This document shows, in pieces, positions 7,585-21,384 of a stretch of DNA of 64,000 nt; position 1 is the stretch's first letter, and the number at the start of each line of letters is the position of its first letter. The stretch comes from Streptomyces sp. NL15-2K (GTDB taxonomy: Bacteria > Actinomycetota > Actinomycetes > Streptomycetales > Streptomycetaceae), in contig NZ_CP130630.1 of the NCBI RefSeq assembly GCF_030551255.1, forward strand, positions 5,189,501-5,253,500. The letters run 5' to 3'. The notes below the pieces were generated by a model that worked only from the letters and a program-made list of their open reading frames with translations, ran no database searches and had not been told where the DNA came from. Made by a program: the position numbers and the translations under genes.

Positions 7585-7740
7585 ATGAAGTACACGCAGC
7601 TCGGACGCACGGGACTCAAGGTCAGCCGACTCGTCCTCGGGACGATGAACTTCGGTCCGCAGACCGACGAAGCCGACAGCCACGCCATCATGGACGCCGC
7701 GCTGGACGCGGGAATCAACTTCTTCGATCAGCAATTTTGA
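7585..7740 (+). pseudogene. Aldo/keto reductase, 5' fragment (interrupted by element I)
   Basis: MKYTQLGRTGLKVSRLVLGT begins a normal AKR. The reading frame leaves the family after residue 48 (GINFFD) and runs into QQF and a TGA. The rest of the gene resumes at 20548. Joining 7585-7727 to 20550-21384 gives an uninterrupted 325-residue AKR with the expected FFDTANVYGWG sequence. The break falls inside the codon of the conserved catalytic Asp48 (GA|C). The fragment alone cannot fold as an AKR barrel. Confidence 0.93.
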
Positions 7741-7744
7741 CGCC
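7720..7744. other. attL of element I
   Basis: Host AKR sequence ends at 7727. Element sequence then carries CAATTTTGACGCC (7732-7744), whose exact complement lies at 20528-20540 near the right junction. In the excised circle these 13-mers would face each other around the GA crossover, the expected form of a serine-integrase attP. Confidence 0.8.
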
Positions 7745-7863
7745 GAACTGCATCGTAGCGTGTCACCAGCGCGCATGTGGCACCACGGAGAGCGCCGACC
7801 GCCACCCCCAACTCGCCCTGCACGCAGAGCAGGAGGCAGCGGTCCACATGCAGATTTGTTACT

Positions 7864-8853
7864 TCACCATGCGAAAGCTTCGGGGGACGGTCCCGGCCCC
7901 GGGAAGATCTCGTCGAGAGCCGCAAGGAGCTCCGCGCCCAGGTCCAGGTCGAGGGCGCGCAGCGCTGAGTCAAGCTGCTCCTGCGTGCGTGGGCCGACGA
8001 TCGGTCCTGTCACGCCGGGACGGGTGAGCAGCCAGGCCAGGGCGGCCTCGCCTGGTTCGATGCCGTGCTTGTCGAGCAGGTTCTCGTACGCCTGGATCTG
8101 CTCGCGCGTGCGGGCGTCCTTGAGGGCGTCGGCGGCCCGTCCGCTCGCCCGGCGCCCCTCCGTGGCCTCCTTCTTGAGGACTCCGCCGAGCAGCCCGCCG
8201 TGCAGCGGCGACCACGGGATGACCCCGAGGCCGTAGACCTGCGCGGCAGGGATGACCTCCATCTCGGCGCGGCGCTCGGCGAGGTTGTAGAGGCACTGCT
8301 CGCTGACGAGCCCGACCCGGCCGTGTGTCTTCGCGTTCTCGTTGGCCTGGGCGATCTTGTAGCCGGGGAAGTTCGAGGAACCGGCGTAAAGGATCTTCCC
8401 TTGTTGGACCAGGACGTCGATCGCCTGCCAGATCTCCTCGAACGGCGTCGAACGGTCGATGTGATGGAACTGGTAGACGTCGATGTAGTCGGTCTGGAGC
8501 CGCTTGAGGGAAGCGTCCACGGCACGGCGGATGTTCACGGCGCTGAGCCGGTCATGGTTGGGCCAGGCCGGTCCGTCGGCGCCCATGTTCCCGTAGACCT
8601 TGGTGGCCAGGACCGTCTTGTCACGACGCCCGCCGCCCTTTGCGAACCAGGTACCGACGATCTCCTCGGTGCGCCCCTTGTTCTCACCCCACCCGTACAC
8701 ATTTGCAGTGTCAACGAAATTCAGCCCCGCATCGAGCGCCGCATCCATGATGGTGTGGCTGGTGGCTTCATCCGTCTGAGGCCCGAAGTTCATCGTGCCG
8801 AGCACGATGCGACTGACCTTGAGTCCGGTACGTCCCAGCTGCGTGTATTCCAT
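7864..8853 (-). CDS. Intact aldo/keto reductase carried by element I (replacement copy)
   Basis: 329 aa, complete AKR, very similar along its whole length to the interrupted host AKR (for example both have TDYIDVYQFHHIDR and NLAERRAEMEVIPAAQ). Tetrad residues are visible: Asp48 and Tyr53 (VDTANVYG), Lys85 (TVLATKVYG) and His130/131 (QFHH). It probably uses NADPH to reduce aldehydes or ketones, substrate unknown. It lies just inside attL in opposite orientation to the host gene. Around codons 44-53 it uses AAT, GTT, ACT and GCA codons that are rare in this genome, exactly where the host gene has the integration site. ATG 8853 is chosen because family homology begins there, although the frame is open upstream. 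Confidence 0.93.
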   Translation of the reverse strand: MEYTQLGRTGLKVSRIVLGTMNFGPQTDEATSHTIMDAALDAGLNFVDTANVYGWGENKGRTEEIVGTWFAKGGGRRDKTVLATKVYGNMGADGPAWPNHDRLSAVNIRRAVDASLKRLQTDYIDVYQFHHIDRSTPFEEIWQAIDVLVQQGKILYAGSSNFPGYKIAQANENAKTHGRVGLVSEQCLYNLAERRAEMEVIPAAQVYGLGVIPWSPLHGGLLGGVLKKEATEGRRASGRAADALKDARTREQIQAYENLLDKHGIEPGEAALAWLLTRPGVTGPIVGPRTQEQLDSALRALDLDLGAELLAALDEIFPGPGPSPEAFAW

Positions 8854-8921
8854 GGTCGCCAAGCGAACCCCTTCGAGTCCACTCCACGCAAGACGTCCGG
8901 CGGGCGGCGGGTACGCCTGCC

Positions 8922-9462
8922 TCAGGCGCCCTCGCCGATGTGCCGGTACAGCGTGGCGCGTGAGACGCCCAGGGCCCTGGCGATGGCGTTGACGCTCTCG
9001 CCCTTGGCCCGTCTGGCGCGGGCGACCGTGAGCATGTCGTCGTTCATGACAGCGGGCCGTCCACCGGTACGCCCCTGCGCCCTGGCCGCGTCCAGCCCGG
9101 CGCGGGTGCGCTCCTTGATGAGGCTGTGCTCGAACTCTGCCATCGCTCCGACGACCTGGAGCATGAGGCGGCCGTCGGCCGTGCCGGGGTCGATGTTGGC
9201 CAGTGCACCCGTGAGCACCTTGAAGCCGATGTCCCGCTCTCGAAGGGTGTCGACCATGGACACGAGGTCGATGAGCGACCGAGCGAAGCGGTCCAGCTTC
9301 CACACACACAGGCTGTCGCCGGCACGGGCGTAGTCGAGTGCTGCGTGCAGCTCTGGCCGATCGGTGTTCTTGCCGCTCGCCTTGTCCTCGAAGATGCGGG
9401 CGCAGCCTGCGTCGGCGAGCGCGTCACGCTGGAGCTGCGCCTCTTGGTCGCCGGTGGAGACG
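8922..9462 (-). pseudogene. Small serine resolvase, 3' part (split by nested element)
   Basis: From RVSTGDQEAQLQRDALADAG to the end this is a normal resolvase/invertase: RVS catalytic motif, WKLDRFARSL, GAMAEFEHSLIKERT and a C-terminal helix-turn-helix (SVNAIARALGVSRATLYRHI). The first beta strand is missing. Upstream the frame enters unrelated sequence of the nested element. The missing residues MNTGQLIGYA are encoded at 15899-15930. Joining the pieces at the shared 7-mer restores 190 codons in frame. It was probably the element's resolution or stability function and is now likely inactive. Confidence 0.9.
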
Positions 9463-9469
9463 CGGGCGT
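9463..9469. repeat. 7-bp core repeat at left end of nested element
   Basis: CGGGCGT, identical to 15899-15905. On the minus strand it encodes part of the resolvase GYAR sequence. GTTAGCTCT at 9468-9476 recurs at 9526-9534, giving direct repeats at the left end that could be recombinase-binding sites. Confidence 0.8.
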
Positions 9470-9568
9470 TAGCTCTGCGGTTTGAGTGTGTCTCGTGAGG
9501 GTGAAGTTCTGTCCCTCGTATGAGTGTTAGCTCTTGCTCTGTTTCGTGTCTCACTCCAGGTTCGTTCC

Positions 9569-10996
9569 GTGATCCTTCACTACTTCAGTTCAGCCGGGTG
9601 GGAAGAGTGGGGCCTGCACGACCGGCCCGTCATCCGGGAGGCCATGCCCGTCCTCATCGACGAGGACCTCTGCTTCGAGGACGCCGCGGGCCCGCGTCCG
9701 ACGATGGTGATGAACCTGTGGCTCCGGGAGTTACCGGTCAGCGGGGCGCCGTCACCGAAGTCCTGGCGGACGTACGCCCAGGCACTCAAGGGCTGGGCGG
9801 AGTTCCTCGACGCCCGCCGGATCTCTGTCTTCGCCGAGCGGCAGCGACTTCGGGATGCGTTGTCGATGTATGCGGAGTACCGGCTGTCCGGTCCGTTGGA
9901 GGTGCGGCTGAGCCCGGCGAGCTGGAATCTGGCGGTCAAGACGCTCTCGTCCTTCTACCAATGGGCAGCGGCCGAGGGGCATGCGCCGACGGTCCCGTTC
10001 TCCTACGTGCGGCAGTCGGTGACCCGCCCGGATGGCGCGCGGGTGGAGGTTGCCAGGAATCTGGCGACGGTGCGTACGGGAAACGCGCACGCGACGCGGA
10101 AGTACCTGGAGAGGCCGTACGCCGAGCTGCTGATGCACGCGTTGGCGGGTAACGACCCGGCGGGCGAGCGGGATGTCTCGTTTCGGGGGCGGGAGACCGG
10201 CCGCAACGCGGCCGTGATCGGCCTGGCGCTGTCCAGCGGGCTGCGGTCGCAGGAGTTCACGCATCTGACGGTCTACGAGGTGCCGTCGTTGCCGCGCCGC
10301 CGCACGGCGGTGCCGGTGCCTCTGGTGCTCGCCGCTCCGACGGCGAAGGGCAGAAGGGGTCGCTCGACGTGGATCGGCTATGACGACCTGGCCCGGGTTC
10401 ACGACTACATCGGCTGGGAGCGGGCGGCGGCGACGGAGGACTCGCGCTGGCGGCCCCGCGATCCGCTGTTCGTCGAAGCCCCCACGCATGACGGCGCACT
10501 CATCAACGGGACCCGCCGCCGCTGGCACACCCTCACGCCGGCCGAGCGCCTGCGGCTGGTGGCGCCCGGCGGGGGCAGCGCTCTGCTGGCGGTGCAGTCC
10601 GGCGGGAAGCCGTTCGTCGACTGGGCGACCGTCCTGCGCCGCACCGCGCAGCGGATCCGGGACCGCTACGAGCCGTCCTTCCCGCATGTTCACCCCCACG
10701 TCACCAGGCACACTTTCGCGATGGCGACGCTGGAGCGCCTGGTGCGCGGCTACTACCAGCAGGCTGCTCAGCTGGTCGTGGACGCTGGTGGTGATGACGC
10801 GCTGGCGCTCTACCTGACCAAGGCCGATCCGCTGCTGGTGCTGCGCGACCTGTTGGGGCATACCAGTGCCGTCACCACTCAGGCATATCTGCATCTGCTC
10901 GACACCCAGCGGATCTACCGCGACGCCTACGCAGCCGCCGGGGGAGCCCCGGCCGCGGACGAGGCGGCGGCAGTCGAGTTCGAGGACGAGGTCTGA
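9569..10996 (+). CDS. Tyrosine recombinase 1 of the trio (TnpA-like)
   Basis: 475 aa from GTG 9569 (an in-frame start at 9524 is possible). The N-terminal SAM-like DNA-binding region includes SWRTYAQALKGWAEFL. The catalytic domain has Arg in SSGLRSQEFTHL, the HxxRH box HPHVTRHTFAMATLE, LLGHTSAVTTQAYLHL with the second His, and the nucleophile Tyr. All active-site residues are present. First gene of a four-gene overlapping operon: its TGA overlaps the next ATG at 10996. Expected to catalyse integration and excision of the nested element together with the next two proteins. Confidence 0.9.
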   Translation: MILHYFSSAGWEEWGLHDRPVIREAMPVLIDEDLCFEDAAGPRPTMVMNLWLRELPVSGAPSPKSWRTYAQALKGWAEFLDARRISVFAERQRLRDALSMYAEYRLSGPLEVRLSPASWNLAVKTLSSFYQWAAAEGHAPTVPFSYVRQSVTRPDGARVEVARNLATVRTGNAHATRKYLERPYAELLMHALAGNDPAGERDVSFRGRETGRNAAVIGLALSSGLRSQEFTHLTVYEVPSLPRRRTAVPVPLVLAAPTAKGRRGRSTWIGYDDLARVHDYIGWERAAATEDSRWRPRDPLFVEAPTHDGALINGTRRRWHTLTPAERLRLVAPGGGSALLAVQSGGKPFVDWATVLRRTAQRIRDRYEPSFPHVHPHVTRHTFAMATLERLVRGYYQQAAQLVVDAGGDDALALYLTKADPLLVLRDLLGHTSAVTTQAYLHLLDTQRIYRDAYAAAGGAPAADEAAAVEFEDEV

Positions 10997-12720
10997 TGCC
11001 GGCCGAGATCCAGCAGCCGTTGGCGGTGCTGTTCACCCTGCCGGACGGCGTCGTCCATCACGGGGCTCTGCACGATCTGCCGAACCAGCAGATGGCCGCG
11101 GACCTGGCCATGGGGCTGGTGGCGGCCACCCACCCGCACGGGCCGATCCGCACCCGCTCCGTGGCCCGGCAGTACATGACGACGATGCGCCGGATGGCGC
11201 ATGATCTCGACGCCTTGGGTGCCACGGGTGGTCTTGCCGATCTGACCCCGGCCACGCTGGTGCAGTACTGGCTGACCTGCGACTACCACCGCGAGCGGCG
11301 TATCCGCGTGGTGCTGGATGCTTTCCAGGAGACCACCGGAGGGCTGGATGAGGGCATCTGCCGCCACCTTGCCGGGCGGCGGATCAACAAGGCCGGGAAG
11401 AGCCGGCCCAACCAGCCCTACAGCGACGGCGAGTGGCAGCGGCTCGAAGCCGCGTGCACCGAGCAGATTGCGGAGGCCCGCCGCGCTCACCGCAAGGCGC
11501 TGGAGGCGGCCGCCCGCGGCGCCGACCCGTCCGCCCACGGAATCACCCTCGACAACGTCGCCTGGCTCTGGCTCCACGCAGGGCCCGCGGAGGCGAGAAG
11601 AGCCGTCGAGCGGCTCGGCACAGCGGACGTCGACATGGACGGGGCGCAGATCGCCGGGGTGGAAGCGGCGCTCTTCCCGGTGACCGACACAGCACTCGCC
11701 TACCTCACTCTGTTCGCGATGCGCACGGGTATCGTCCCGGACGGCATCGACGCGCTGCGACTCGACGACATCACCCGGACCTCGGCCAACACGGTCCTGC
11801 TCTCCTACCGCAAGGGACGCACTGGGGGCGAGGTGCTCAACCTCCCCCGCGACGCGGTGCGGTTGCTGGACCGCTGGCTGGATCACTCGGCCCCGCTGCG
11901 CGAACATGCCGGTGAGCTGGCCGGGCATCTGTGGATCCACATGGGCCGCGATGGCGGCGGCCGGGGAGCCGGACGGGGCAGGATCTTCGCCCGGCCCCGC
12001 ACCCAGAGCAGGCGACGGGCGTGGATGGAGTCCTCGGGCGTGCTCGGCGACGACGGACGGCTACTGCCGGTGCACGGTGGCCGGGTCCGTGCCACCTACC
12101 ATCACCGCCGCGACCGGGCGGCCTGGACCGGGCGCACAACGATCGACCCCAACCACAGCGCCCGCGTCGAGGGTGACCACTACCTCAGCTCTCACACCCC
12201 GGCCCAGTTGGATGCCTTGGAGGGCGTCATCGAGCAGGCCCAGGGCGACGTGCGCCGCAAGGCTGGCCCGCCGGTCGTGGTCAGCGGCGAGGACGCTGCC
12301 GCATTCGCCGCGTCGTTCCCGCGTCTGGTCGAGGACGCCGGTCTGGACGCGGCGACCATCAAGGCTCTGCTCTCCGGTGAACAGGACGTGTTCGTCGCCG
12401 CCTGCGCCAGTCCGCTGAACAGCCCGCACGCGCCGGCGGGAACTTTGTGCCCGGCCCGGCCGTGGGTGTGTCTGCTGTGTCCGCTCGCGGCGTTCGCGCC
12501 CCGTCACCTGCCCAACCTGCTCCGGCTCAAGGAGTACTTCTCCCGGCAGGCCCAGCAGATGACCACCGCCCAGTTCCTGCAGATCTTCGGCCCGTATGCG
12601 GCCCGGCTGGACGAGGACATCCTGCCCCGGTTCGGCCCGGCCGCCATCGACGCCGCCAGTCGGCAGATCAACGAGACCGGCGCCTTCCTGCCGCTGAACC
12701 TGGAGGAACAGTCCCAGTGA
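10996..12720 (+). CDS. Recombinase 2 of the trio, degenerate tyrosine recombinase
   Basis: 574 aa, coupled to its neighbours by ATG and GTG overlaps. The middle of the protein resembles a tyrosine-recombinase catalytic domain (LFAMRTGIVPDGIDALRLDD, RVRATYHHRR, TIDPNHSARVEGDHYLS), but the first catalytic Arg position reads GIV instead of GLR. This subunit may therefore have a structural or regulatory role in a mixed complex. The C-terminus has a Cys cluster (CASPLN, GTLCPARPWVCLLCPLA) that could bind zinc. Residue assignment is by eye and should be treated as provisional. Confidence 0.75.
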   Translation: MPAEIQQPLAVLFTLPDGVVHHGALHDLPNQQMAADLAMGLVAATHPHGPIRTRSVARQYMTTMRRMAHDLDALGATGGLADLTPATLVQYWLTCDYHRERRIRVVLDAFQETTGGLDEGICRHLAGRRINKAGKSRPNQPYSDGEWQRLEAACTEQIAEARRAHRKALEAAARGADPSAHGITLDNVAWLWLHAGPAEARRAVERLGTADVDMDGAQIAGVEAALFPVTDTALAYLTLFAMRTGIVPDGIDALRLDDITRTSANTVLLSYRKGRTGGEVLNLPRDAVRLLDRWLDHSAPLREHAGELAGHLWIHMGRDGGGRGAGRGRIFARPRTQSRRRAWMESSGVLGDDGRLLPVHGGRVRATYHHRRDRAAWTGRTTIDPNHSARVEGDHYLSSHTPAQLDALEGVIEQAQGDVRRKAGPPVVVSGEDAAAFAASFPRLVEDAGLDAATIKALLSGEQDVFVAACASPLNSPHAPAGTLCPARPWVCLLCPLAAFAPRHLPNLLRLKEYFSRQAQQMTTAQFLQIFGPYAARLDEDILPRFGPAAIDAASRQINETGAFLPLNLEEQSQ

Positions 12721-14891
12721 CGACCGCCCATGCCGCCGCCGTCCCGGTCCTTGCCGGACGGCACCCCTTCCGCGGTCTGCCGGTCATCGAGACCGCTGGC
12801 CTGCGGCGCGATCCCCGCAGCCCTCGCCCCGTGTTCGACCAGGACGTGTGGGACCTGACCGGCCTCGCTGACGCCCCGGTGGTGATGAGCAGACACCGCA
12901 AGATCCTTGACTTCACCGCCATCGCCAGCTCGCGCTGGCGGCAGGTCGCCCGCGAGTATCTGCTGGCACGACTGGCCCCGCTCCATCCGGATGTGGCCAC
13001 CCTGCCGTGGGCCTTCCGCGTCCCGCTGAACCCGAACTCGCTCTGGTCCGAGCTGAAACACCTGGCCCTGTGGTTCAACTACCTCACCTCGGTCGGCGTC
13101 ACCTCGCTGTCCCAGGTCCGCCAGCACCACTGCGACGCCTACCTCGCCACGGTCTCGCGCACCACCGCCGATCCCAACCGGCCGCTGTCGCCTTCGACCA
13201 CGGCGGCGAGGGTGCGTATCCCGCAGTTCCTCGCTCTCTACACGGAGATCCTCAGCGACCGCTACCAGCCAGGTTTCACCCCGTGGGCGGGACGCGGCGC
13301 CGACGAGGTCGCCGGATACGTACGCAGCGACGAGAACCGGGTGCCACCGGTTCCGGATGCGTTGCTGCGGCCCCTGCTGGCGAACTGTCTGTACTTGCTG
13401 GAGACGATCGGCCCGCCGCTGGCGGCCGAGGTCGCGGCAGCCCGCGCCGCCGACGACCGCGAGGCCGCCTCGCAGCGGAGCCTGCTGGTCCACCAGATCG
13501 ACAAGGTGCGCGAGGCCGTCGACCAGCGGCGTGGTGCCGGGATCCCGGCACCACAAGCCCAGTCATCGACCGTCGCCCAGCGGCTCAAGGGCGGATGGGA
13601 CCCAGACGATCCGCTTCTGCACATGGCCTGGCACCCCTTCGTCGTCGAGACCGCAGGCGCCATGGGCCACCGTCGGCAACTGGAGACTCTCCGCCCCGAG
13701 CTGGAACGCTGGGTGAGCCAGTGCGGCCTGCAACCGCCCTGGTGCCGTGACGCGGCTCGGATTCCCCGGCACGGCGACGGCGAACTGGTGCCGTGGGCCT
13801 TGCCGATGGCCCGGCACCAGCTGGACGCGACGGTCTACGTGGTCACCTCAGCCGCCTATTTCCTCACCTCGGCGCTGTCCGGCATGCGCACCTCCGAGCT
13901 GGCGGAACTGACCAGCGGATGCCGACAGCAGGAACAGCGACCCGGCGGCGGCACCCGCTACCGTCTGGTCTCCCGCCGCATCAAGGGCGAAGCGTTCGGC
14001 GGGACCGAGGACGCCTGGGTGGTCATCGAGGACGTGCATCACGCCGTCACCACCGCCGAAGCCCTCACCAGCGCCCCGCCGGGCCAGCGGCTGTTCGCCA
14101 AGGCGTCCAACAACAGCAACCGCCGCTACACAGCCCTGCGTTCATGGGTGAACGGCGAGCACGGACAGCGGCTCGGGCTGGAACCCCTTCCAGACGGACC
14201 GGTCAACCCGCGAGCCCTCCGCCGCACCCTCGCGATGGCCATCGCCCAGCGCCCGCACGGCCTGATGGCCACGAAACTGCACCTCAAACACGTCAGCGTC
14301 GCCACGACCGAGGGGTATGCCGCCCGCCCCGGCGGGCACCAGGCTGCCTTCGCTGCCGAGGTTGCCGCCGAGGAAGAGGCCGAACACCTGCGACTGACCG
14401 TCGCTGCCTATGAGGACTACCAGCGCGGCATCCTGCCCAGCGGACAAGGCGCCCGCGACCTGATCACGGCCTTCAAGGCCGCCGACCAGGCCCTGGACCG
14501 GCATGAGGCCGGGCCGGTCACCGTCATCGACGACCGCCGCGTCGAGCGGGTCCTGAAGGCGAAGGCCAAGACCCTCCACATCGGAGTAGGCAACTACTGC
14601 TGGTTCTCCGACCCGAGCAAGGCGTTGTGCCTGAAACTCGCCGGCACCCCGGACGCCGACAAGCCCCTGATGGGGATGTGCGACTCGGCCCGCTGCCCGC
14701 AGGCTACCCACCATCCCCAGCATCGGCAGGTCTGGGCCGACCACGCCGAGAGCACCCAGGCCGTCTTCCTCGGCAACCCCAGACTCTCCAAGCCCGAACG
14801 GGCCCGAGCCCAGACCGCGTTCGATCGCGCCACTCGCATCGTCGCCGAGATCGACACCGCCGGACACGCAGACGAGGAGCTCGCCCCATGA
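12717..14891 (+). CDS. Recombinase 3 of the trio (TnpB-like tyrosine recombinase)
   Basis: 724 aa from GTG 12717, which overlaps the previous TGA; upstream in-frame sequence is out-of-frame readthrough of recombinase 2. Catalytic region: SALSGMRTSELAELTSG (Arg), RALRRTLAMAIAQ (Arg box; the usual His is replaced) and LHLKHVSVATTEGYA (His and Tyr). The C-terminal domain carries YCWFSDPSKALCLKL and MGMCDSARCPQATHH, a likely zinc-binding Cys/His cluster. Long N-terminal domain (about 400 aa). Stop overlaps the next gene (ATGA). Confidence 0.85.
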   Translation: MTTAHAAAVPVLAGRHPFRGLPVIETAGLRRDPRSPRPVFDQDVWDLTGLADAPVVMSRHRKILDFTAIASSRWRQVAREYLLARLAPLHPDVATLPWAFRVPLNPNSLWSELKHLALWFNYLTSVGVTSLSQVRQHHCDAYLATVSRTTADPNRPLSPSTTAARVRIPQFLALYTEILSDRYQPGFTPWAGRGADEVAGYVRSDENRVPPVPDALLRPLLANCLYLLETIGPPLAAEVAAARAADDREAASQRSLLVHQIDKVREAVDQRRGAGIPAPQAQSSTVAQRLKGGWDPDDPLLHMAWHPFVVETAGAMGHRRQLETLRPELERWVSQCGLQPPWCRDAARIPRHGDGELVPWALPMARHQLDATVYVVTSAAYFLTSALSGMRTSELAELTSGCRQQEQRPGGGTRYRLVSRRIKGEAFGGTEDAWVVIEDVHHAVTTAEALTSAPPGQRLFAKASNNSNRRYTALRSWVNGEHGQRLGLEPLPDGPVNPRALRRTLAMAIAQRPHGLMATKLHLKHVSVATTEGYAARPGGHQAAFAAEVAAEEEAEHLRLTVAAYEDYQRGILPSGQGARDLITAFKAADQALDRHEAGPVTVIDDRRVERVLKAKAKTLHIGVGNYCWFSDPSKALCLKLAGTPDADKPLMGMCDSARCPQATHHPQHRQVWADHAESTQAVFLGNPRLSKPERARAQTAFDRATRIVAEIDTAGHADEELAP

Positions 14892-15313
14892 GGCAGGAAC
14901 ACCAGACCGAAGCCGAGGCCAGAATCCGGGCGGCGATGCGCCAACTCCTCACCGGTCCCGTCCCCGACGGCCTGAAATGCGACGTCAAGAGCCTGTGCAC
15001 CCTCGCCAGAGTGCCGCGGCCGACCTTCTACCGCACCTACCCGCATCTGAAAGCCGAGTTCGACCGCCAGCGAACCGCCACCCAGGAAGCCGGACGACAA
15101 CCTGACCAACGCCTGGCGCAGATCGAACGACTCAAGGCCGAAGTCGCGACTCTGCGCGAGCGCCTCAGCCGGAAGGACACGGAGCTCGACGCACTGAAGG
15201 AGTTCCAGACCACAGCCTTGTCTCGCCTCGCCGCACAGCACGAGGAGATCGTGATGCTGCGACGCGACTCGTTCCCAGCCTCAAGCAGCCCTCAGCTGCG
15301 TCCTGTTGAGTAG
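14888..15313 (+). CDS. TnpC-like accessory protein (DUF6262-type)
   Basis: 141 aa. An N-terminal helix-turn-helix-like region (VKSLCTLARVPRPTFYRTYP) is followed by a coiled coil (about residues 70-120, RLAQIERLKAEVATLRERLS). Small helical partners of this kind accompany Tn554-like recombinases and are thought to stimulate or orient recombination. The ATG overlaps the stop of recombinase 3, so it belongs to the same operon. Confidence 0.8.
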   Translation: MRQEHQTEAEARIRAAMRQLLTGPVPDGLKCDVKSLCTLARVPRPTFYRTYPHLKAEFDRQRTATQEAGRQPDQRLAQIERLKAEVATLRERLSRKDTELDALKEFQTTALSRLAAQHEEIVMLRRDSFPASSSPQLRPVE

Positions 15314-15425
15314 CCGTCACGGCACGGAAGGGCTTGTCGGCCACATCCTTCAATCTCGCGGACATCTATCAATGTCGCTGAGATTGAGCTATGTTCGCGA
15401 CACGTCAATCAAGGAGGTTTCGTTC

Positions 15426-15710
15426 ATGGCAAGTCCTCGCGTCCTCAGGCTCACCTTCGAGTTTCACGTCCCGGAAGGACTCAACGCGAACATCCGCTTT
15501 GCCCGCATTGAGAAGGCCGCCGCTTCCCTGACTGCAGGTATCCAGGCGCTCGCGTCGACCGCCTTCCCCTGGGCCGATCGCCTCGTCGTGCGCAAGGAGT
15601 GGTCTTACCAGTGGTGGGCACCTGAGGCTGACGAGATCCCGCTGCCGCCCTCCGACTCCAACACCGTGTCCAACGACGTCCCGGAGCCGGCTACAACCGC
15701 CAAGGAATAA
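15426..15710 (+). CDS. Small protein of unknown function in nested element
   Basis: 94 aa with a strong ribosome binding site (AAGGAGG at 15411-15417) before ATG 15426. Sequence features: VLRLTFEFHVPEGLNANIRF, then a Trp-rich WSYQWWAPEADEIPLPP. No signal peptide or membrane segment. It sits 110 bp after the recombinase operon and is followed directly by a terminator, so it is probably separately controlled. Not recognised. Confidence 0.7.
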   Translation: MASPRVLRLTFEFHVPEGLNANIRFARIEKAAASLTAGIQALASTAFPWADRLVVRKEWSYQWWAPEADEIPLPPSDSNTVSNDVPEPATTAKE

Positions 15711-15728
15711 CACACCCCATTGCGATGA

Positions 15729-15762
15729 CTGAGGCCCACGGTCTTGTGGTCGTGGGCCTCAG
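15729..15762 (+). terminator. Intrinsic terminator after the nested element operon
   Basis: Twelve-base-pair stem CTGAGGCCCACG and its complement around a 10-nt loop, 18 nt after the stop at 15710. There is no T-tract, as is common in high-GC genomes. Confidence 0.8.
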
Positions 15763-15898
15763 CGCTTGAAGTTTGATCGACTTTCGAAGTGGTCCGGGCC
15801 CGTGAGACACGAAGTCAGACGTTCAATGCGCCGACATTGCCAATGAGACCGCGGACAGGCAATACACAACCGACTGGACACGTCTCATGCCCGGCTAT

Positions 15899-15930
15899 CG
15901 GGCGTACCCGATGAGCTGGCCAGTGTTCAT
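15899..15930 (-). pseudogene. Small serine resolvase, 5' fragment
   Basis: ATG 15930 followed by codons for NTGQLIGYA and the first two bases of an Arg codon. IGYAR is the canonical first strand of small serine recombinases, ending just before the catalytic Ser. Continuation at 9462 gives GYARVSTGDQ. In its present place the frame stops after MNTGQLIGYAR. Confidence 0.88.
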
Positions 15931-15963
15931 GTTCGCCGTCACAGCCGAGACAATCTCAGAACT

Positions 15964-16075
15964 CGTCTCAATACGTCAAGCCTGAGGCGGGGGTTTCGAG
16001 ACGGGTTTTGAACAGCGCTGGGCTCCCTTCTGGGATGCCTGATACCTCGTCTCGCAAACCTTGGTTTCTGAGACG
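15964..16075. promoter_or_regulatory. res-like recombination/operator site upstream of the resolvase
   Basis: Four copies of a CGTCTC-based half-site occur in alternating orientation upstream of the resolvase ATG: CGTCTCAATAC (15964), the complement of CGTCTCGAAACCC (15991-16003), CGTCTCGCAAACC (16048-16060) and the complement of CGTCTCAGAAACC (16063-16075). The last two form a 28-bp dyad with a 2-bp centre, the size of a crossover site I in Tn3/gamma-delta res sites. The rest of the gap to 16311 shows no clear gene. Confidence 0.6.
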
Positions 16076-16311
16076 CCCGTTTCTGAATCACGCGCTGCGC
16101 CCTGTCGGTCGCGGTGGCAACCGACGTACGCCGTCTGCCTGTGCGTCGCTGTGATCTCGCGGGCCCGCTGGTAGCGAAGCCTGCCAGCCGCTCGCGCGGA
16201 CGCAGCACGAGCCAGCCTTGGCGATGAGGGAAGGGGGTATGACCCCCGGAGGGGTCTTTGCCCGACCGCCGAGTCTTACCGGCCGAGATCGCGCCACGGT
16301 TTCAGGGTTGA

Positions 16312-16851
16312 TCAAGCTCTCACGGCATTGCGCAGGAACATCCTCACCATGGCTTCCATGTGCACTGCTGCGCCCTCGACTTCGGGCCAGATCTCTTCTG
16401 TAAGCACATCTCGTGGCGTCCGGAGAATTTCGACGCTCCATCTGGCCGACAGCCGCAAGACCTCATTCACGGCTTCGAGGAACTCCTCATACACAAAGTT
16501 GACCCCAGTCTCCTCCTCCCATGACGACACTGCGGCGCGAAATCGGAGGCGCTGATCCGCGAGCCGGTCGGCGTGCATCCGTGCGTCGTGCCGCAGTTGT
16601 TGAAGCTCATGCGCAGCACCGGGGGGATCAGCCTCTCTCGCTGCGTAGTTCCAGACCTTTTTGACAGTCTCGGAGAGGCGCACCATGTTCACATACATCT
16701 CGCTGGCGGCGCGTCGACGCGGAGAGTCCGTCTGGTGCTCGACAGTGATCGAGTACTTGTCGCCGAATACCGTCTCTTCCATCGTCTGGCGATCGGCGTT
16801 GAACTGAACTCCTACGTGCTGACCCTGCTGGTCGAAGCTGCTTTCATCCAC
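16312..16851 (-). CDS. Hypothetical protein with N-terminal FDQ..VGVQFNA motif
   Basis: 179 aa from GTG 16851, overlapping the upstream gene's TGA by 8 bp, so translation is coupled. It starts SFDQQGQHVGVQFNADRQTM, then FGDKYSITVEHQ and a long helical, charged C-terminal part (about residues 55-175). The partner protein begins with the same kind of motif. Similar N-Q/V-Q-N stretches occur in actinobacterial proteins associated with conflict or effector systems, but I cannot assign a function. Confidence 0.7.
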   Translation of the reverse strand: MDESSFDQQGQHVGVQFNADRQTMEETVFGDKYSITVEHQTDSPRRRAASEMYVNMVRLSETVKKVWNYAAREADPPGAAHELQQLRHDARMHADRLADQRLRFRAAVSSWEEETGVNFVYEEFLEAVNEVLRLSARWSVEILRTPRDVLTEEIWPEVEGAAVHMEAMVRMFLRNAVRA

Positions 16852-17152
16852 CGAGCGCCCCAAGTATTGCGGCGATCTGACTCCCGATTCCCGTGGCCAG
16901 GCTGCCCATCTCAAGCACTCGCCGCAGCCGCCCTCCCGTCTCAGCGGTGTCGCCAGACACTGCTGCATCGCGCGCGGCTACCAGCTCCGCCTGCACTTCG
17001 GGAGGCAAGGGTGGCTCCGTCCGGTGAGCCTGCGCCAGAACGTTTTCCACCCCAGCAGCGATGTCGGCCATCGAGGCCGACGATCCAACGATCATGTTCT
17101 CAGCGTTGTGCTGAACGCCGACAGTCTGGTTGTGCTGGTTGAAGGTTGCCAC
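16844..17152 (-). CDS. Hypothetical protein with N-terminal FNQ..VGVQHNA motif
   Basis: 102 aa from GTG 17152 (an ATG at 17263 is in frame). It starts ATFNQHNQTVGVQHNAENMI, paralogous in its first 20 residues to the downstream gene. The middle is Ala/Glu-rich and helical. The C-terminus LATGIGSQIAAILGALGG is hydrophobic, Gly-rich and possibly amphipathic or membrane-active. Coupled pair; function unknown. Confidence 0.65.
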   Translation of the reverse strand: MATFNQHNQTVGVQHNAENMIVGSSASMADIAAGVENVLAQAHRTEPPLPPEVQAELVAARDAAVSGDTAETGGRLRRVLEMGSLATGIGSQIAAILGALGG

Positions 17153-17537
17153 GCGGTCACGGTACGGCGCACGCGGCACTCTGAACAACGCGTTCACAGT
17201 CTCAACTTTCGTACCCTGCTGCCTCGTTCGAGTAGGAGTGGCGGCAGCGGACCAAGGGGCCATGCCCCGAGGGGCGCTGTCGCGCCCTACAGCCGTTTAC
17301 TGTCGAGCCGCACAAGCTCTGTCGGCCCCGAAAGGGGCCGCACATCTGTCAGCCGCCTTCCGATGTGGCGGCCTTCCGGCCGCCCCTGCTGCTTACCTCT
17401 TCGTCGTTGCACGGCTTCTGGCTTCGCTGTTCGCCAGAGGTCTGCGTGCTGGTCGGCCGCAGGCCGCCAGAGGTCAGACGGCTGACGTACTTACGTAAGT
17501 GAAGTGAGGAGCGAGGCTTGCCGAGCGGAGCGAGGTA
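17153..17537. other. Hairpin-rich non-coding region of element I
   Basis: No convincing gene in 385 bp. It contains several GC-rich hairpins (CGGCCCC-GAAA-GGGGCCG, GGCGGCC..GGCCGCC, GGTCGGCCGC..GGCCGCC) and a GACGTACTTACGTAAGTG palindrome-like stretch, followed by GAGCGAGG/GAGCGGAGCGAGG direct repeats. It lies immediately downstream of the RepA-like gene. A replication or transfer origin of the excised element is possible but unproven. Confidence 0.4.
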
Positions 17538-17589
17538 GCTGGTGGTGGTGACCGCTTCCTGTAAAGGGGGAGCCATCACCACCACCAGC
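17538..17589 (-). terminator. Terminator after the RepA-like gene
   Basis: Fourteen-base-pair inverted repeat GCTGGTGGTGGTGA (17538-17551) and its complement (17576-17589), starting 3 nt after the stop of the minus-strand gene at 17592. Confidence 0.7.
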
Positions 17590-17591
17590 GC

Positions 17592-18548
17592 TCAGGCCGT
17601 GGCGGCAGGCTTTCGGACCCAGCGTCCGCCGACACGCTCCAGCCGGTCCCTGAGCTTCGGCCGTACGGTCTCGGGCTTCCTGTCGACGATGGGCGCGTAG
17701 CGCCTCGACAGCGCGAGCGCCGACTCCTCTTCCGGCTGTTCCTCGATGATCCGCGCGACGAGGTCTTCGTCCCAGGTCTTCGCCTTGGGCAGGCTGACGA
17801 CCTTGAGTCCCGGCTCCACTCGCTCCCAGACGGGGATTTCCGAGCCGTTACTCGCCGTCCTCATGGTGACTGCGATGTCGAGATCGCTCTTGGCCCGGTT
17901 GATCGCGGTCTGGATGCTGCGCCCCTTCTTGGACTTCCGCAGGACGATGACGCCGCGGACGCCTCCGGCCATCGCCCGCCCGCCAATGGGAGCGGAGGCC
18001 GTGGTGAGCCCCTCGCCGTTACCCTTCGGCGTGTGCGTCACCGCGAGCACGGGGATGCCGGACTTGCTGATCGGCTTGAGCTTGTCGATGGTGTTCCGGG
18101 CCGTGACGGAGGAGGCGACGTCCTCACCGTCACCGAGGGCGCCCAGCACGTTGTCGAGGACGAAGAGGTCGGCGCCCAGCGTCAGGAGGTCGTCGTGGAC
18201 GCCCTGCCAGTAGCCGGGCTGGCTGGTGTCCTCCACGGGGAAGACGGTGACGGAGTCCCTCGGGACTGCGCCGTGCAGCCGCTCGCGGAGTTCCCCCTCG
18301 GCGCCGTCGTCGGTGAGGCCGAAGACGATGTGGCGGCAGAGGCGCAGCACGGGGAGACCGAGGAATTCGTCGGCTCCGTTCAGGAGGGCGGCGGACATCC
18401 CAGCGGCGAAGTTCGTCTTCCCGGCCTTGGGCTCGCCGGCGAGCATGGTGATGTTGCTGGTGAGCAGGTCGCCAATGAGGAACGCCTGCTCGTACGGGAC
18501 GTGCTCGATCTCGTGGAGCTTGCGCCCCTTGGTGGTGATGGCTCCCAC
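17592..18548 (-). CDS. RepA/RecA-fold AAA ATPase (replication helicase-like)
   Basis: 318 aa, GTG start. Walker A is GEPKAGKT at residues 38-45, after the hexameric-helicase-like lead LLTSNITMLA. Walker B is ADLFVLDNV. Further RecA-core blocks are VLAVTHTPKGNGEG and GGRAMAGGVRGVIVLRKSKKG. The C-terminal part (about 230-318) is a winged-helix-like tail. This is the RSF1010 RepA/AAA_25 type found in plasmids and integrative elements, where it opens DNA for replication. It lies between the integrase and the hairpin-rich region, supporting a plasmid-like excised state. Confidence 0.82.
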   Translation of the reverse strand: MGAITTKGRKLHEIEHVPYEQAFLIGDLLTSNITMLAGEPKAGKTNFAAGMSAALLNGADEFLGLPVLRLCRHIVFGLTDDGAEGELRERLHGAVPRDSVTVFPVEDTSQPGYWQGVHDDLLTLGADLFVLDNVLGALGDGEDVASSVTARNTIDKLKPISKSGIPVLAVTHTPKGNGEGLTTASAPIGGRAMAGGVRGVIVLRKSKKGRSIQTAINRAKSDLDIAVTMRTASNGSEIPVWERVEPGLKVVSLPKAKTWDEDLVARIIEEQPEEESALALSRRYAPIVDRKPETVRPKLRDRLERVGGRWVRKPAATA

Positions 18549-18757
18549 GGTTTGTCGGGCCCCTTCCTGTGAGGCGCACGAATGCGCCGGTAACCCCCGC
18601 CGGACGGCGGGACATGTGCCTCCCTTTCTTCGCGGGGGGGGACCGGCGCCGGACGGCGCGGTCTCTCATCACAGGTGGCGCCCAGGGCGTGATGCCCGGA
18701 CTCGGTCTCGTGCGGTCGGGAGCGACGGCGACGACCTGCCGGGCATCCTACAAAGGC

Positions 18758-18797
18758 CGAGAGGACCCTGCGTTCGGGGCCCCCTCGGTTCCTCTCG
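18758..18797 (-). terminator. Terminator candidate after integrase I
   Basis: CGAGAGGA (18758-18765) pairs with TCCTCTCG (18790-18797), with GC-rich pairing inside the loop. It lies 14 nt after the minus-strand integrase stop at 18811. Confidence 0.5.
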
Positions 18798-18810
18798 CCC
18801 TTCGGCTTCG

Positions 18811-20460
18811 TCACTCTTCGCTGCGAATCGCTGCCATGTTGCGTACGCGCTGCTTGAAGTCCATCGGGATCAGAACCTGAACCCGTCCGACGGAGTGCTG
18901 CCACATGCCGTCATGGCCGTCCACGGACATGGCCTGCGCGGCCGTCATCCCCCGGATCGGCTCTGCGTGGATGACAGCCTTGGCCCCTGCGGCACGGAGC
19001 TCCTTGCCCTTCTCGTGCTGGGTCGACAGCTTGCTCCACCGCTCCCGGTAAGTCTCTCCCGTGGGGATCTCCTCCCAGGTGTCCGGTCGTGTGGGCTGGG
19101 CGATGAGTTGCTCGCGTCGCGCGTCCAGCCGCTTGTACGTCTCGCGGTACTCCTGCTTGCCCAGCTCGCTGGAGTAGAGGCCCGCCTCGCGGTCTTCCCG
19201 CAGGTCCGCCAGGGCACGGTTCACTTCCTCGATGTCGCGCGTGTAGTCCACCCCCGGACGGAAGACCTTCCGGACGATCTCGACGTCCCCTGCGGCGAGG
19301 AGGAACGCGTTCTCCACGGCGTCCTCCAGCGTGTGAGCCGCAATGCCCTTGCTTCCGGTCGGGCACGGCTTGTGGGTGGTCCGCGAGGCGCAGCGGTAGT
19401 AGGGCCAGTTACGGCCGGGGCCGAGATACGCGGGTTCCCCACAGGTGCAGAACGCAACCCGGAGCAGGGGTGAGCCGCCCTTGCGGTTTCCGTTGCGCTG
19501 ACTGGTGTTCTCGTCCAGCTTCTTGTTGGCCAACTCCCACTCCTCCTGCGTGATCAAGGGCTCCGCGCGCTGAAGAGGCTGGCCATCGGCGTCCCGGACG
19601 ACTCGGGTCCGCTTCACCTTCTTCCCGTCAACCATCACTTCCTCAGTCACTTCCATCTGCCCCAGGACACAGCGGGAGCGCACGACCTTGGACGTGTTCG
19701 CGGCGGTCCAGCGGCTCCCCTTCGGGGTCTTGCCGCTCCGGATCATCTGGGCGTCCAGGGACGTCGGGGTCTTGGACGTGTCCTCGTTGAGCCACTGCGC
19801 GATGCTGTTCGCCGACTCACCTTCGATGAGACGGCGAACGATCTCGCGAAGCGTCCCGGCCGTGTCCGTTCCGTAGTCGTCCGGCACCAGCTTCCACCCC
19901 TCGCCGGTCTCCTGCTTCTCCTCGCGGTACCCATACGGAGTGCGGCCACCGCGCCAGCGTCCCTCCTTCACCAGGTGGTTGTAGGACGACTTGGCCCGCG
20001 CCTTGATGGCTTCGAGCTCCCCCTCCGCGAAGGACGCGATCAGGCTCAGGAGGAGCTTCCCCATCTGCGTGTTCAGGTTGATCCCGTCCTCGACGGTGGC
20101 TACCTCCTTGCCGTTCTTCTCGCACCACTCCAGGAGGGTGTGCACGTGCAGCACGCGCCGCGAGAGGCGGTCGATCTTCAGCGCGCAGAGGATGTCGTAC
20201 TCATCGGCGCGCGACTCCTCCATCGCGATCCTGTGCTCGATCGCGCTGACCTCCTTTCCGATGGTCGAAGGCAGCCACTTGCCGAACTCCGGGCGCTTCC
20301 ACGGCTCTACCCCGCCAGACACGTCGATGTCCTCGACCCATCCCACGACGACGTGCCCCTCCTGGTCGGCCCATCGCTGGATGGACCGACGCTGACGCTC
20401 CGGCGATGTGGTCTCGTCCGACACCCTCGACAGACGGACCACACCCAGAACTCTCGCCAT
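18811..20460 (-). CDS. Large serine recombinase (integrase of element I)
   Basis: 549 aa from ATG 20460 (a further in-frame ATG at 20487 is possible). Resolvase domain about 1-150 with catalytic Ser11 in VVRLSRVSDETTSPERQR, ALKIDRLSRR and SFAEGELEAIKARAK. A recombinase domain about 160-300 follows (WRGGRTPYGYREEK). The zinc ribbon is CTCGEPAYLG..YYRCAS..KPCP. A coiled coil occupies about 400-470. It begins about 90 bp from attR, as phage and ICE serine integrases usually do. Expected to recombine attP with the AKR attB without other factors; excision would need a directionality factor, not identified here. Confidence 0.93.
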   Translation of the reverse strand: MARVLGVVRLSRVSDETTSPERQRRSIQRWADQEGHVVVGWVEDIDVSGGVEPWKRPEFGKWLPSTIGKEVSAIEHRIAMEESRADEYDILCALKIDRLSRRVLHVHTLLEWCEKNGKEVATVEDGINLNTQMGKLLLSLIASFAEGELEAIKARAKSSYNHLVKEGRWRGGRTPYGYREEKQETGEGWKLVPDDYGTDTAGTLREIVRRLIEGESANSIAQWLNEDTSKTPTSLDAQMIRSGKTPKGSRWTAANTSKVVRSRCVLGQMEVTEEVMVDGKKVKRTRVVRDADGQPLQRAEPLITQEEWELANKKLDENTSQRNGNRKGGSPLLRVAFCTCGEPAYLGPGRNWPYYRCASRTTHKPCPTGSKGIAAHTLEDAVENAFLLAAGDVEIVRKVFRPGVDYTRDIEEVNRALADLREDREAGLYSSELGKQEYRETYKRLDARREQLIAQPTRPDTWEEIPTGETYRERWSKLSTQHEKGKELRAAGAKAVIHAEPIRGMTAAQAMSVDGHDGMWQHSVGRVQVLIPMDFKQRVRNMAAIRSEE

Positions 20461-20527
20461 GCTCGTTCTCGCTCTCCCCTGCAGCACGCATCGTGCACAA
20501 GGAGTGACGGTATGTGGTTCGGATCAT

Positions 20528-20556
20528 GGCGTCAAAATTGATCTTTGGACACCGCC
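20528..20556. other. attR of element I
   Basis: GGCGTCAAAATTG (20528-20540) is the inverse of the attL arm at 7732-7744. Host AKR sequence resumes with GA at 20548-20549, then CACCGCCAACG. Confidence 0.8.
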
Positions 20557-21384
20557 AACGTCTACGGCTGGGGCGAGAACAAGGGCCGCACCGAGTCGAT
20601 CATCGGGAACTGGTTCGCCAAGGGCGAGCGGCGCGACAAGGTCGTCCTCGCCACCAAGATGTACGGCAACATGGCCGGGGACGGCGAGGCCTGGCCCAAC
20701 CACGACAAGCTGTCCGCCCTCAACATCCGGCGGGCCGTCGACGCCTCGCTGAAGCGGCTGCAGACCGACTACATCGACGTCTACCAGTTCCACCACATCG
20801 ACCGGAACACGCCCTTCGAGGAGATCTGGCAGGCCATCGACGTCCTCGTCCAGCAGGGCAAGATCCTGTACGTCGGCTCCAGCAACTTCCCCGGCTACAA
20901 GATCGCCCAGGCCAACGAGGTCGCCGCCCGGCGCGGGGGCACCATCGGTCTCGTCAGCGAGCAGTGCCTGTACAACCTCGCCGAGCGGCGCGCCGAGATG
21001 GAGGTCATCCCGGCCGCGCAGGACTACGGCCTGGGCGTCATCCCCTGGTCGCCGCTGCACGGCGGTGTGATCAAGAAGGAGGTCCAGGGCGGACGCCGTG
21101 CCTCCGGACGGGCGGCCGACACCCTCGCCGACCCCGCCGCACGCGCGCAGATCCAGTCGTACGAGGACCTGCTGGAGAAGCACGGGGTGGAGCCCGGCGA
21201 GGCCGCGCTGGCCTGGCTGCTGACCCGGCCCGGCGTGACCGGGCCGATCGTCGGGCCGCGCACCGCAGAGCAGCTCGAGTCCGCGCTGCGCGCGGTCGAG
21301 CTGGAGCTGAGCGAGGAGCTGCTGGCAGGCCTGGAGGAGATCTTCCCGGGGACGGGGCCCTCCCCGGAGGCCTTCGCCTGGTAG
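20548..21384 (+). pseudogene. Aldo/keto reductase, 3' fragment
   Basis: Continues the AKR from Asp48: DTANVYGWGENKGRTESII to the end GPSPEAFAW. It is intact to its stop, with Tyr, Lys and QFHH residues all present. A TTG at 20545 could start translation of this part, but the protein would lack the first beta-alpha units of the barrel. Element I separates it from its start at 7585. Confidence 0.93.

Follow-up and report, generated by a model that had tools for sequence, protein, structure and literature searches.

A site-specific element in Streptomyces that interrupts an aldo/keto reductase gene and very probably carries a rescue copy of it

The 12.4 Mb genome of Streptomyces sp. NL15-2K contains an element of 12,822 bp that interrupts a resident aldo/keto reductase (AKR) gene and carries a second, complete AKR gene of its own. 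We analysed it within a stretch of 64,000 nucleotides (RefSeq assembly GCF_030551255.1, contig NZ_CP130630.1, positions 5,189,501 to 5,253,500), called the window below, whose first letter is position 1 of all coordinates. In our judgement this is very probably an integrative element that inserts site-specifically and brings its own rescue gene for the AKR that it breaks; the cargo AKR would make the insertion tolerable and rescue the fitness of the host. A previous reading made from the letters alone (the sequence-only reading) had proposed such a rescue gene, and the recurrence of the cargo AKR, its co-travel with the integrase and the pattern of selection on it all agree with that proposal. 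Genomes are given G numbers and loci L numbers.

The interrupted gene and its recurrence

The element occupies positions 7728-20549 and separates the resident gene at the codons for Asp48 and Thr49. On one side lies a 5' fragment on the forward strand (7585..7727; codons 1-48, broken within Asp48), and on the other a 3' fragment on the same strand (20550..21384; codons 48-325, with its frame still open). Joining 7585-7727 to 20550-21384 gives a single 978-nt frame that encodes 325 aa with zero internal stops, which upholds the earlier claim that removing 12,822 bp from an AKR split at Asp48 restores a protein of 325 residues. The cargo AKR (7864..8853, reverse strand; 329 aa) adjoins the left attachment site, attL, inside the element and is inverted relative to the host gene. 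Along its full length it is identical to the rejoined resident gene at 273 of 330 positions (83%), as had been claimed for a complete homologue at these positions, and Val47 replaces Phe47. The protein is AKR12D-like and matches chains of PDB 8jwk and 8xr2 from end to end, with E about 3e-182. The element does not mend its target in place: the host frame at attL reaches a TGA within eight codons, and at the right attachment site, attR, an in-frame TGA stands ahead of the 3' fragment.

At the far end of the element, the gene at 18811..20487 on the reverse strand (558 aa as listed, with an alternative start possible at ~20460) encodes a protein with Resolvase (PF00239) and Recombinase (PF07508) domains, both over the Pfam cut-offs, and a zinc-ribbon match of 22.1 bits that falls slightly under its cut-off of 25.3. 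It also matches the PHROG 95 integrase. By these matches it is a large serine integrase.

The attachment sites of related elements locate the crossover. In the relatives attL reads host..TTCGAC-AC-CGCCAAC..CAATTTTGACGCC and attR reads GGCGTCAAAATTG..AC-CGCC..host, so that an AC core is flanked by 13-bp inverted-repeat attP arms, GGCGTCAAAATTG / CAATTTTGACGCC. When attL and attR are compared, the switch from element-derived to host-derived variation falls on the AC in the Thr49 codon, which is therefore most simply taken as the core. The GA dinucleotide at which the sequence-only reading had joined the two ends is refuted as the core by the same comparison, and is a by-product. In the window, attR spans 20528..20560, and its 13-bp arm, GGCGTCAAAATTG, is the inverted match of the arm in attL (7717..7745). 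TTC is kept at codon 47 in all 15 readable attL sites, which is unsurprising when 85% of resident genes have TTC there. The attL sites of L024, L026 and L035 hold one, three and one extra AC core dinucleotides, respectively, resembling mis-repaired integrase cuts.

We searched for the integrase in 392 genomes of the genus, of which 13 were positive at E<=1e-60, and in GTDB contigs, which gave 19 loci. Ten of the 13 positive genomes have the integrase at the AKR and three have it beside a ComM/YifB-like gene. After merging loci from the same genome, there were 24 distinct loci in which this integrase adjoins AKR sequence (the window, L020-L038, L039, L040, L041 and L046). A full-length AKR is present in 23 of the 24, always on the strand of the integrase and far from attR, and all 23 are stop-free and 987-993 nt long; at L037 the contig ends about 1 kb beyond the integrase, leaving the presence of an AKR unjudgeable. 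Because the arrangement recurs in this way, with the one remaining locus cut by a contig end, chance is excluded. The sequence-only reading had asked whether the AKR always travels with the integrase and had held that related elements lacking it would count against a rescue gene; none was seen among the elements in the AKR gene. It had also asked about an intact AKR at empty sites; an AKR was found in 380 of the 392 genomes, and 379 had no integrase match at E<=1e-60.

The common layout is [3' part of host AKR] attR - integrase - variable stretch - full AKR - attL [5' part of host AKR]. The broken host gene is visible in 22 loci, and there target and cargo are the same gene. At L020, L022, L027, L028, L030, L036 and L041 the host gene is represented on one or both sides by short or eroded pieces, or could not be found there. 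The integrase itself is divided between two frames in L032 and reduced to a fragment of about 107 residues in L038. In the 14 loci whose two ends could be located, element lengths range from 1.7 to 12.8 kb, and L027 and L028 contain hardly anything except integrase and AKR. The sister element L040 has an integrase and a cargo AKR that are each 99% identical to those of the window, yet spans 3.5 kb. Since it retains both of these genes and just scraps of the other window genes, integrase and AKR are what is kept. L037, with a 94% identical integrase in an AKR gene, comes from Actinorugispora endophytica, outside the Streptomycetaceae, and points to a wide range of transfer.

Descent, selection and target-site divergence of the cargo genes

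Co-travel was measured by comparing pairwise distances in 18 of the 23 elements, since L027, L028, L030 and L031 have no alignable host fragment and the L038 integrase is fragmentary. Distances between cargo AKRs follow those between integrases closely (r = 0.81, p = 1e-4 for 17 elements excluding the distant L039; r = 0.52, p = 2e-4 for all 18). Distances between host fragments follow the integrases more weakly (r = 0.41, p = 0.02 for the 17; 0.11, p = 0.35 with L039). Close pairs illustrate the difference: the window and L040 differ by 1.3% in the integrase and 0.6% in the cargo AKR but by 13% in the host fragment, and L021 and L034 by 2.0%, 1.5% and 22%, respectively.

A tree of 83 sequences places the 23 cargo AKRs in groups of 4, 11 and 6, with L025 and L039 as singletons, and sets 18 of 20 broken host fragments among resident genes. 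The other two, from L032 and L038, sit inside the third, mostly-cargo group, and the first two groups have some resident genes without the element as near neighbours. Changes between cargo and non-cargo number 7, against a mean of 20.2 when labels are shuffled. The separate cargo clade that the sequence-only reading expected is therefore borne out in part only: the cargo AKRs make up several lineages, and the 7 changes rule out one clade. From the tree, it is probable that AKRs were acquired or exchanged as cargo on more than one occasion, or that AKR cargo has gone back into the chromosome.

Selection was assessed from the ratio of nonsynonymous to synonymous divergence (dN/dS) to the nearest neighbour over the shared region. 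We used 54 distinct resident genes, after removing duplicates and three proven relics (described below), and 22 cargo genes, leaving out the AKR of L031, whose origin is unclear. The median was 0.26 for broken host fragments compared with residents (n = 20) and 0.18 among residents (n = 54); for cargo genes (n = 22 each) it was 0.14 between cargo genes and 0.19 between cargo and residents. Fragments thus have higher ratios than residents (p = 0.004) and than cargo (p = 9e-5 for cargo-cargo, 0.02 for cargo-resident), and cargo shows no excess over residents (p = 0.97 and 0.22, respectively), all of these p-values being rough because related sequences are not independent. None of the 20 fragments measured has an in-frame stop, all having been picked as single unbroken alignments; the more eroded fragments of L027, L028 and L030 lie outside this set. 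By these ratios the cargo AKRs are under purifying selection and the broken host fragments are relaxed.

If the cargo gene is to survive beside an integrase that cuts AKR genes, its own copy of the target site, attB, should differ, and it does. We compared the 22 cargo genes with the 54 residents, which were taken without regard to their sequence at the site, in 14-codon windows. The nine highest ratios of cargo to resident divergence among 316 windows all start at codons 40-48. Among 22 non-overlapping windows, codons 42-55 rank first with a ratio of 1.87, followed by 1.40, and the median of all windows is 1.10. Codon 47 discriminates cargo from resident better than any other codon of the gene: 46 of 54 residents have TTC there and none of the 22 cargo genes does, all of them having GTN or CTG (L031 has GTA). 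The natural reading is that attB has been lost from the cargo gene; because divergence from the residents peaks over attB, and at codon 47 especially, the integrase of the element is predicted to act poorly on the cargo AKR.

The same divergence bears on the idea that the cargo AKR is a homology device, serving as recombination substrate, attP accessory or decoy and not as a working enzyme gene. Its place next to attP and its high similarity to the target gene would suit such a role. However, its dN/dS is low, Asp48 and Tyr53 are present in all 22 cargo genes examined, and divergence peaks exactly where the function of an att site would need similarity. We find this idea hardly credible.

The DNA ahead of 22 cargo AKRs and one relic varies, apart from a block directly before the start codon, which reads roughly CTTGC-N-GGAG-N-CTC-AAG-N-GTTGGCTTG and in the window lies at 8854..8892 on the reverse strand. 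A closely similar block precedes 26 of the 27 resident AKRs aligned, a subset of the residents, the exception being L097. Operators of MerR-type regulators resemble this block. It looks like a putative promoter through which the cargo AKR carries resident-like control, and through which it would be expressed.

Another explanation might be that the AKR is beneficial cargo in itself, for example in aldehyde or macrolide reduction, its kinship to the target being incidental or a matter of extra dosage. AKR12D enzymes, including members from S. coelicolor and S. albus, are described in passages of PMC10923870 as reducing tylosin, and the constraint on the cargo AKR would be expected here too. Nonetheless, the great majority of genomes (380 of 392) own the gene already, so the number of intact copies after insertion remains one. 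Ordinary cargo would not be expected to be the same gene as the target, as it is in the 22 loci with a visible broken host gene, or to have a promoter motif of the resident type. We consider this explanation unlikely.

Relics, inverted loci and a proposed mechanism

Three element-free genomes, G281 (L078), G012 (L099) and G105 (L118), contain an intact inverted AKR with Val47, which is 99%, 85% and 85% identical to the window cargo, respectively. Beside it, in the opposite orientation, lie remnants of the old gene: residues 267-325 in G281, 1-51 and 62-325 in G012, and 304-325 in G105. The integrase has no match at these AKR loci, nor anywhere in the three genomes at E<=1e-60. In G012 a 159-bp strip adjoining the AKR matches window DNA just past the integrase (81%, E=3e-37). 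Because cargo-type AKRs adjoin inverted remnants of the resident gene in genomes free of the element, the arrangement shows that the resident gene was replaced by a cargo-type AKR. The sequence-only reading had counted a cargo AKR at the locus without the element against a rescue gene. Such AKRs do exist, but three of them adjoin inverted remnants and so show replacement.

These relics also speak to the possibility that the AKR was captured without function, when an ancestral imprecise excision took the AKR DNA beside the att site, and has persisted by inheritance. The cargo does adjoin attL, where an imprecise event would place it, and there are several cargo lineages, one of which (L039) groups near a resident gene on the tree. 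Yet all 23 copies are full-length (987-993 nt) and stop-free, the dN/dS of cargo genes is as low as that of residents, the AKR persists in loci that have lost other genes and even the integrase, and the cargo is inverted relative to the host gene. We regard such a capture as very unlikely.

To see how common inversion is, we examined the first 150 genomes of the genus, of which 142 have an AKR; in 126 it shares a contig with the neighbouring RNA ligase gene. The two genes are in the canonical, convergent arrangement in 101 of the 126 and the AKR is inverted in 25, with zero in any other arrangement. The integrase is present in three of the 25 inverted loci (G000, G019 and G040). Remnants of the old gene were found in two of the 22 integrase-free loci (G012 and G105; G281 is outside the sample), the search in G065 covering part of the interval only. 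We therefore rejected inverted resident AKRs in general as proven relics, remnants being confined to these two and many of the genes having Phe47. Specifically, G004, G015, G066, G071, G098, G115, G134 and G143 have an inverted AKR with Phe47, no integrase and no remnant of an older gene that we could find. The remnant-free inverted AKRs of such Phe47 genomes are a lead: they may be ancient rescue replacements or the result of plain inversion. Amidase matches returned by tblastn with composition statistics off were spurious and were disregarded.

Taken with the rescue-gene reading, these loci suggest the following mechanism. The integrase would recombine attP with attB across roughly codons 42-56 of a widespread AKR12D-like gene, at its conserved catalytic Asp48-Thr49 motif. 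Such a target would give the element a wide host range, but at the price of destroying the resident AKR. The full-length diverged AKR, inverted inside attL behind a resident-like promoter motif, would complement the loss, leaving the cell with one AKR under similar control, and its divergence over attB would let it escape its own integrase. After insertion, selection would hold the cargo gene while the host fragments decay. Elements would then erode to integrase and AKR, probably in that order before the AKR alone is left, which would be an inverted resident AKR. We lean, by a little, towards calling the whole a natural home-and-rescue system, which breaks the resident gene, supplies an integrase-resistant recoded copy with a resident-type promoter, and through decay makes that copy the new resident.

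Several observations weigh against this account. Twelve of the 392 genomes have no AKR at E<=1e-110, which bears on the need for one. In G140 (L116) the AKR is frameshifted just upstream of attB and has no second match at E<=1e-140; the gene may be dispensable there, or the frameshift may be a sequencing error. (An excision scar was rejected, the lesion being a simple frameshift.) L031 showed no trace of a broken host gene, and the AKR there might therefore be resident. Distances between cargo genes also correlate with those between host fragments (r = 0.38, p = 0.02; with L039 0.35, p = 0.03). Val47 occurs in 8 of the 54 residents as well, and the divergence at codon 47 and over attB could partly reflect shared descent, as the 22 cargo genes amount to about five lineages. 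Finally, the attL of the window is damaged, having nine bases fewer than the sister L040 with the core among those lost, and therefore this copy is probably grounded and no longer excisable.

Other gene content, integrase relatives and known systems

Between cargo AKR and integrase the window element holds several further genes. A small serine recombinase of resolvase/invertase type (8922..9554, reverse strand) is reduced to its 3' end in L020 and L078. Four successive open reading frames (ORFs) on the forward strand (9524..15313), absent from L040, comprise a tyrosine recombinase ORF (9524-10996), a second ORF (10996-12720), a third with a weak tyrosine recombinase match (12717-14891) and a small coiled-coil-like one (14888-15313). 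In arrangement they resemble what we take to be a recombinase trio of the Tn554 type, nested in the element. An AAA_25 ATPase (17592..18548, reverse strand) survives as a partial remainder in L040. No virion or transfer genes were found among the subset of element ORFs tested. The viral_contigs collection held no close relative of the integrase, and its best matches among phage and plasmid records were all below 60% identity.

More distant relatives of the integrase (L043, L044, L045 and L098; 56-62% identity) lie beside a gene fragment upstream of dprA, which reads as a ComM/YifB-type protein, a name given by eye from its motifs and its neighbour. At L043-L045, three of these four ComM-type relatives, a search over about 16 kb turned up no duplicate of the flanking ORFs. 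L039, whose integrase is 67% identical, is located in an AKR gene and carries an AKR. So far, then, the rescue habit appears to go with the AKR target. L045 (G192) has a second, distant (30%) large serine integrase-like match about 9 kb past the first.

Large serine integrase elements and phages of the phiC31, Bxb1 and TP901-1 type plainly interrupt a gene. The integrase of the AKR element is of the same type as theirs and as that of the ComM-type relatives, from which the AKR element differs in that no duplicate of the target turned up in the three of the four that were searched. As a rule, mobile elements keep harm low through dispensable targets or by rebuilding the ends of tRNAs and genes; integrative elements that restore tRNA 3' ends and SXT in prfC are familiar cases. 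Passages of PMC6379469 describe e14 in icd and Rac in ttcA as rebuilding the ends of their target genes. The AKR element is like these in that it integrates site-specifically into a conserved gene and the damage is compensated. They supply the missing end alone, however, and rebuild the same gene in place, whereas the AKR element arrives with an entire, diverged gene, preceded by a promoter motif of its own and placed in the opposite orientation, and leaves the resident gene broken. Another likeness may be found in synthetic cleave-and-rescue and home-and-rescue gene drives, which are designed, nuclease-based and eukaryotic. Like them, the AKR element disrupts the resident gene and provides a substitute recoded where the cutting enzyme acts; unlike them it is natural, integrase-based and bacterial, and its recoding is deduced from divergence.

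The enzyme family itself is well described. PMC10923870 reports, in the passages concerned, that AKR12D enzymes are highly conserved in Streptomyces and include 8jwk (AKRtyl), to which the cargo AKR has a full-length match; mobile copies are not treated in those passages. The legend of a figure on a Frankia element in PMC3218068 names an AKR, though not as the target. Searches of open-access titles, abstracts and selected passages met no element reported to bring a full substitute for the gene that it enters, and none with this combination of a complete diverged copy, own promoter motif, opposite strand and altered attB; this is a weak negative, the claim being hard to word.

A whole recoded rescue gene would open the most conserved and most widespread sites, such as catalytic motifs, to an element without the cost of a knockout, and the element would become costly to lose once the resident fragments decay. 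It would also provide a concrete route for a horizontally transferred version to take the place of a host gene. If the home-and-rescue reading is true, repeated rounds would act as an engine of xenologous replacement and gene inversion at the AKR locus. Three states, the full element, integrase with AKR, and AKR alone, are all found in sequenced genomes, so that the process can be studied directly.

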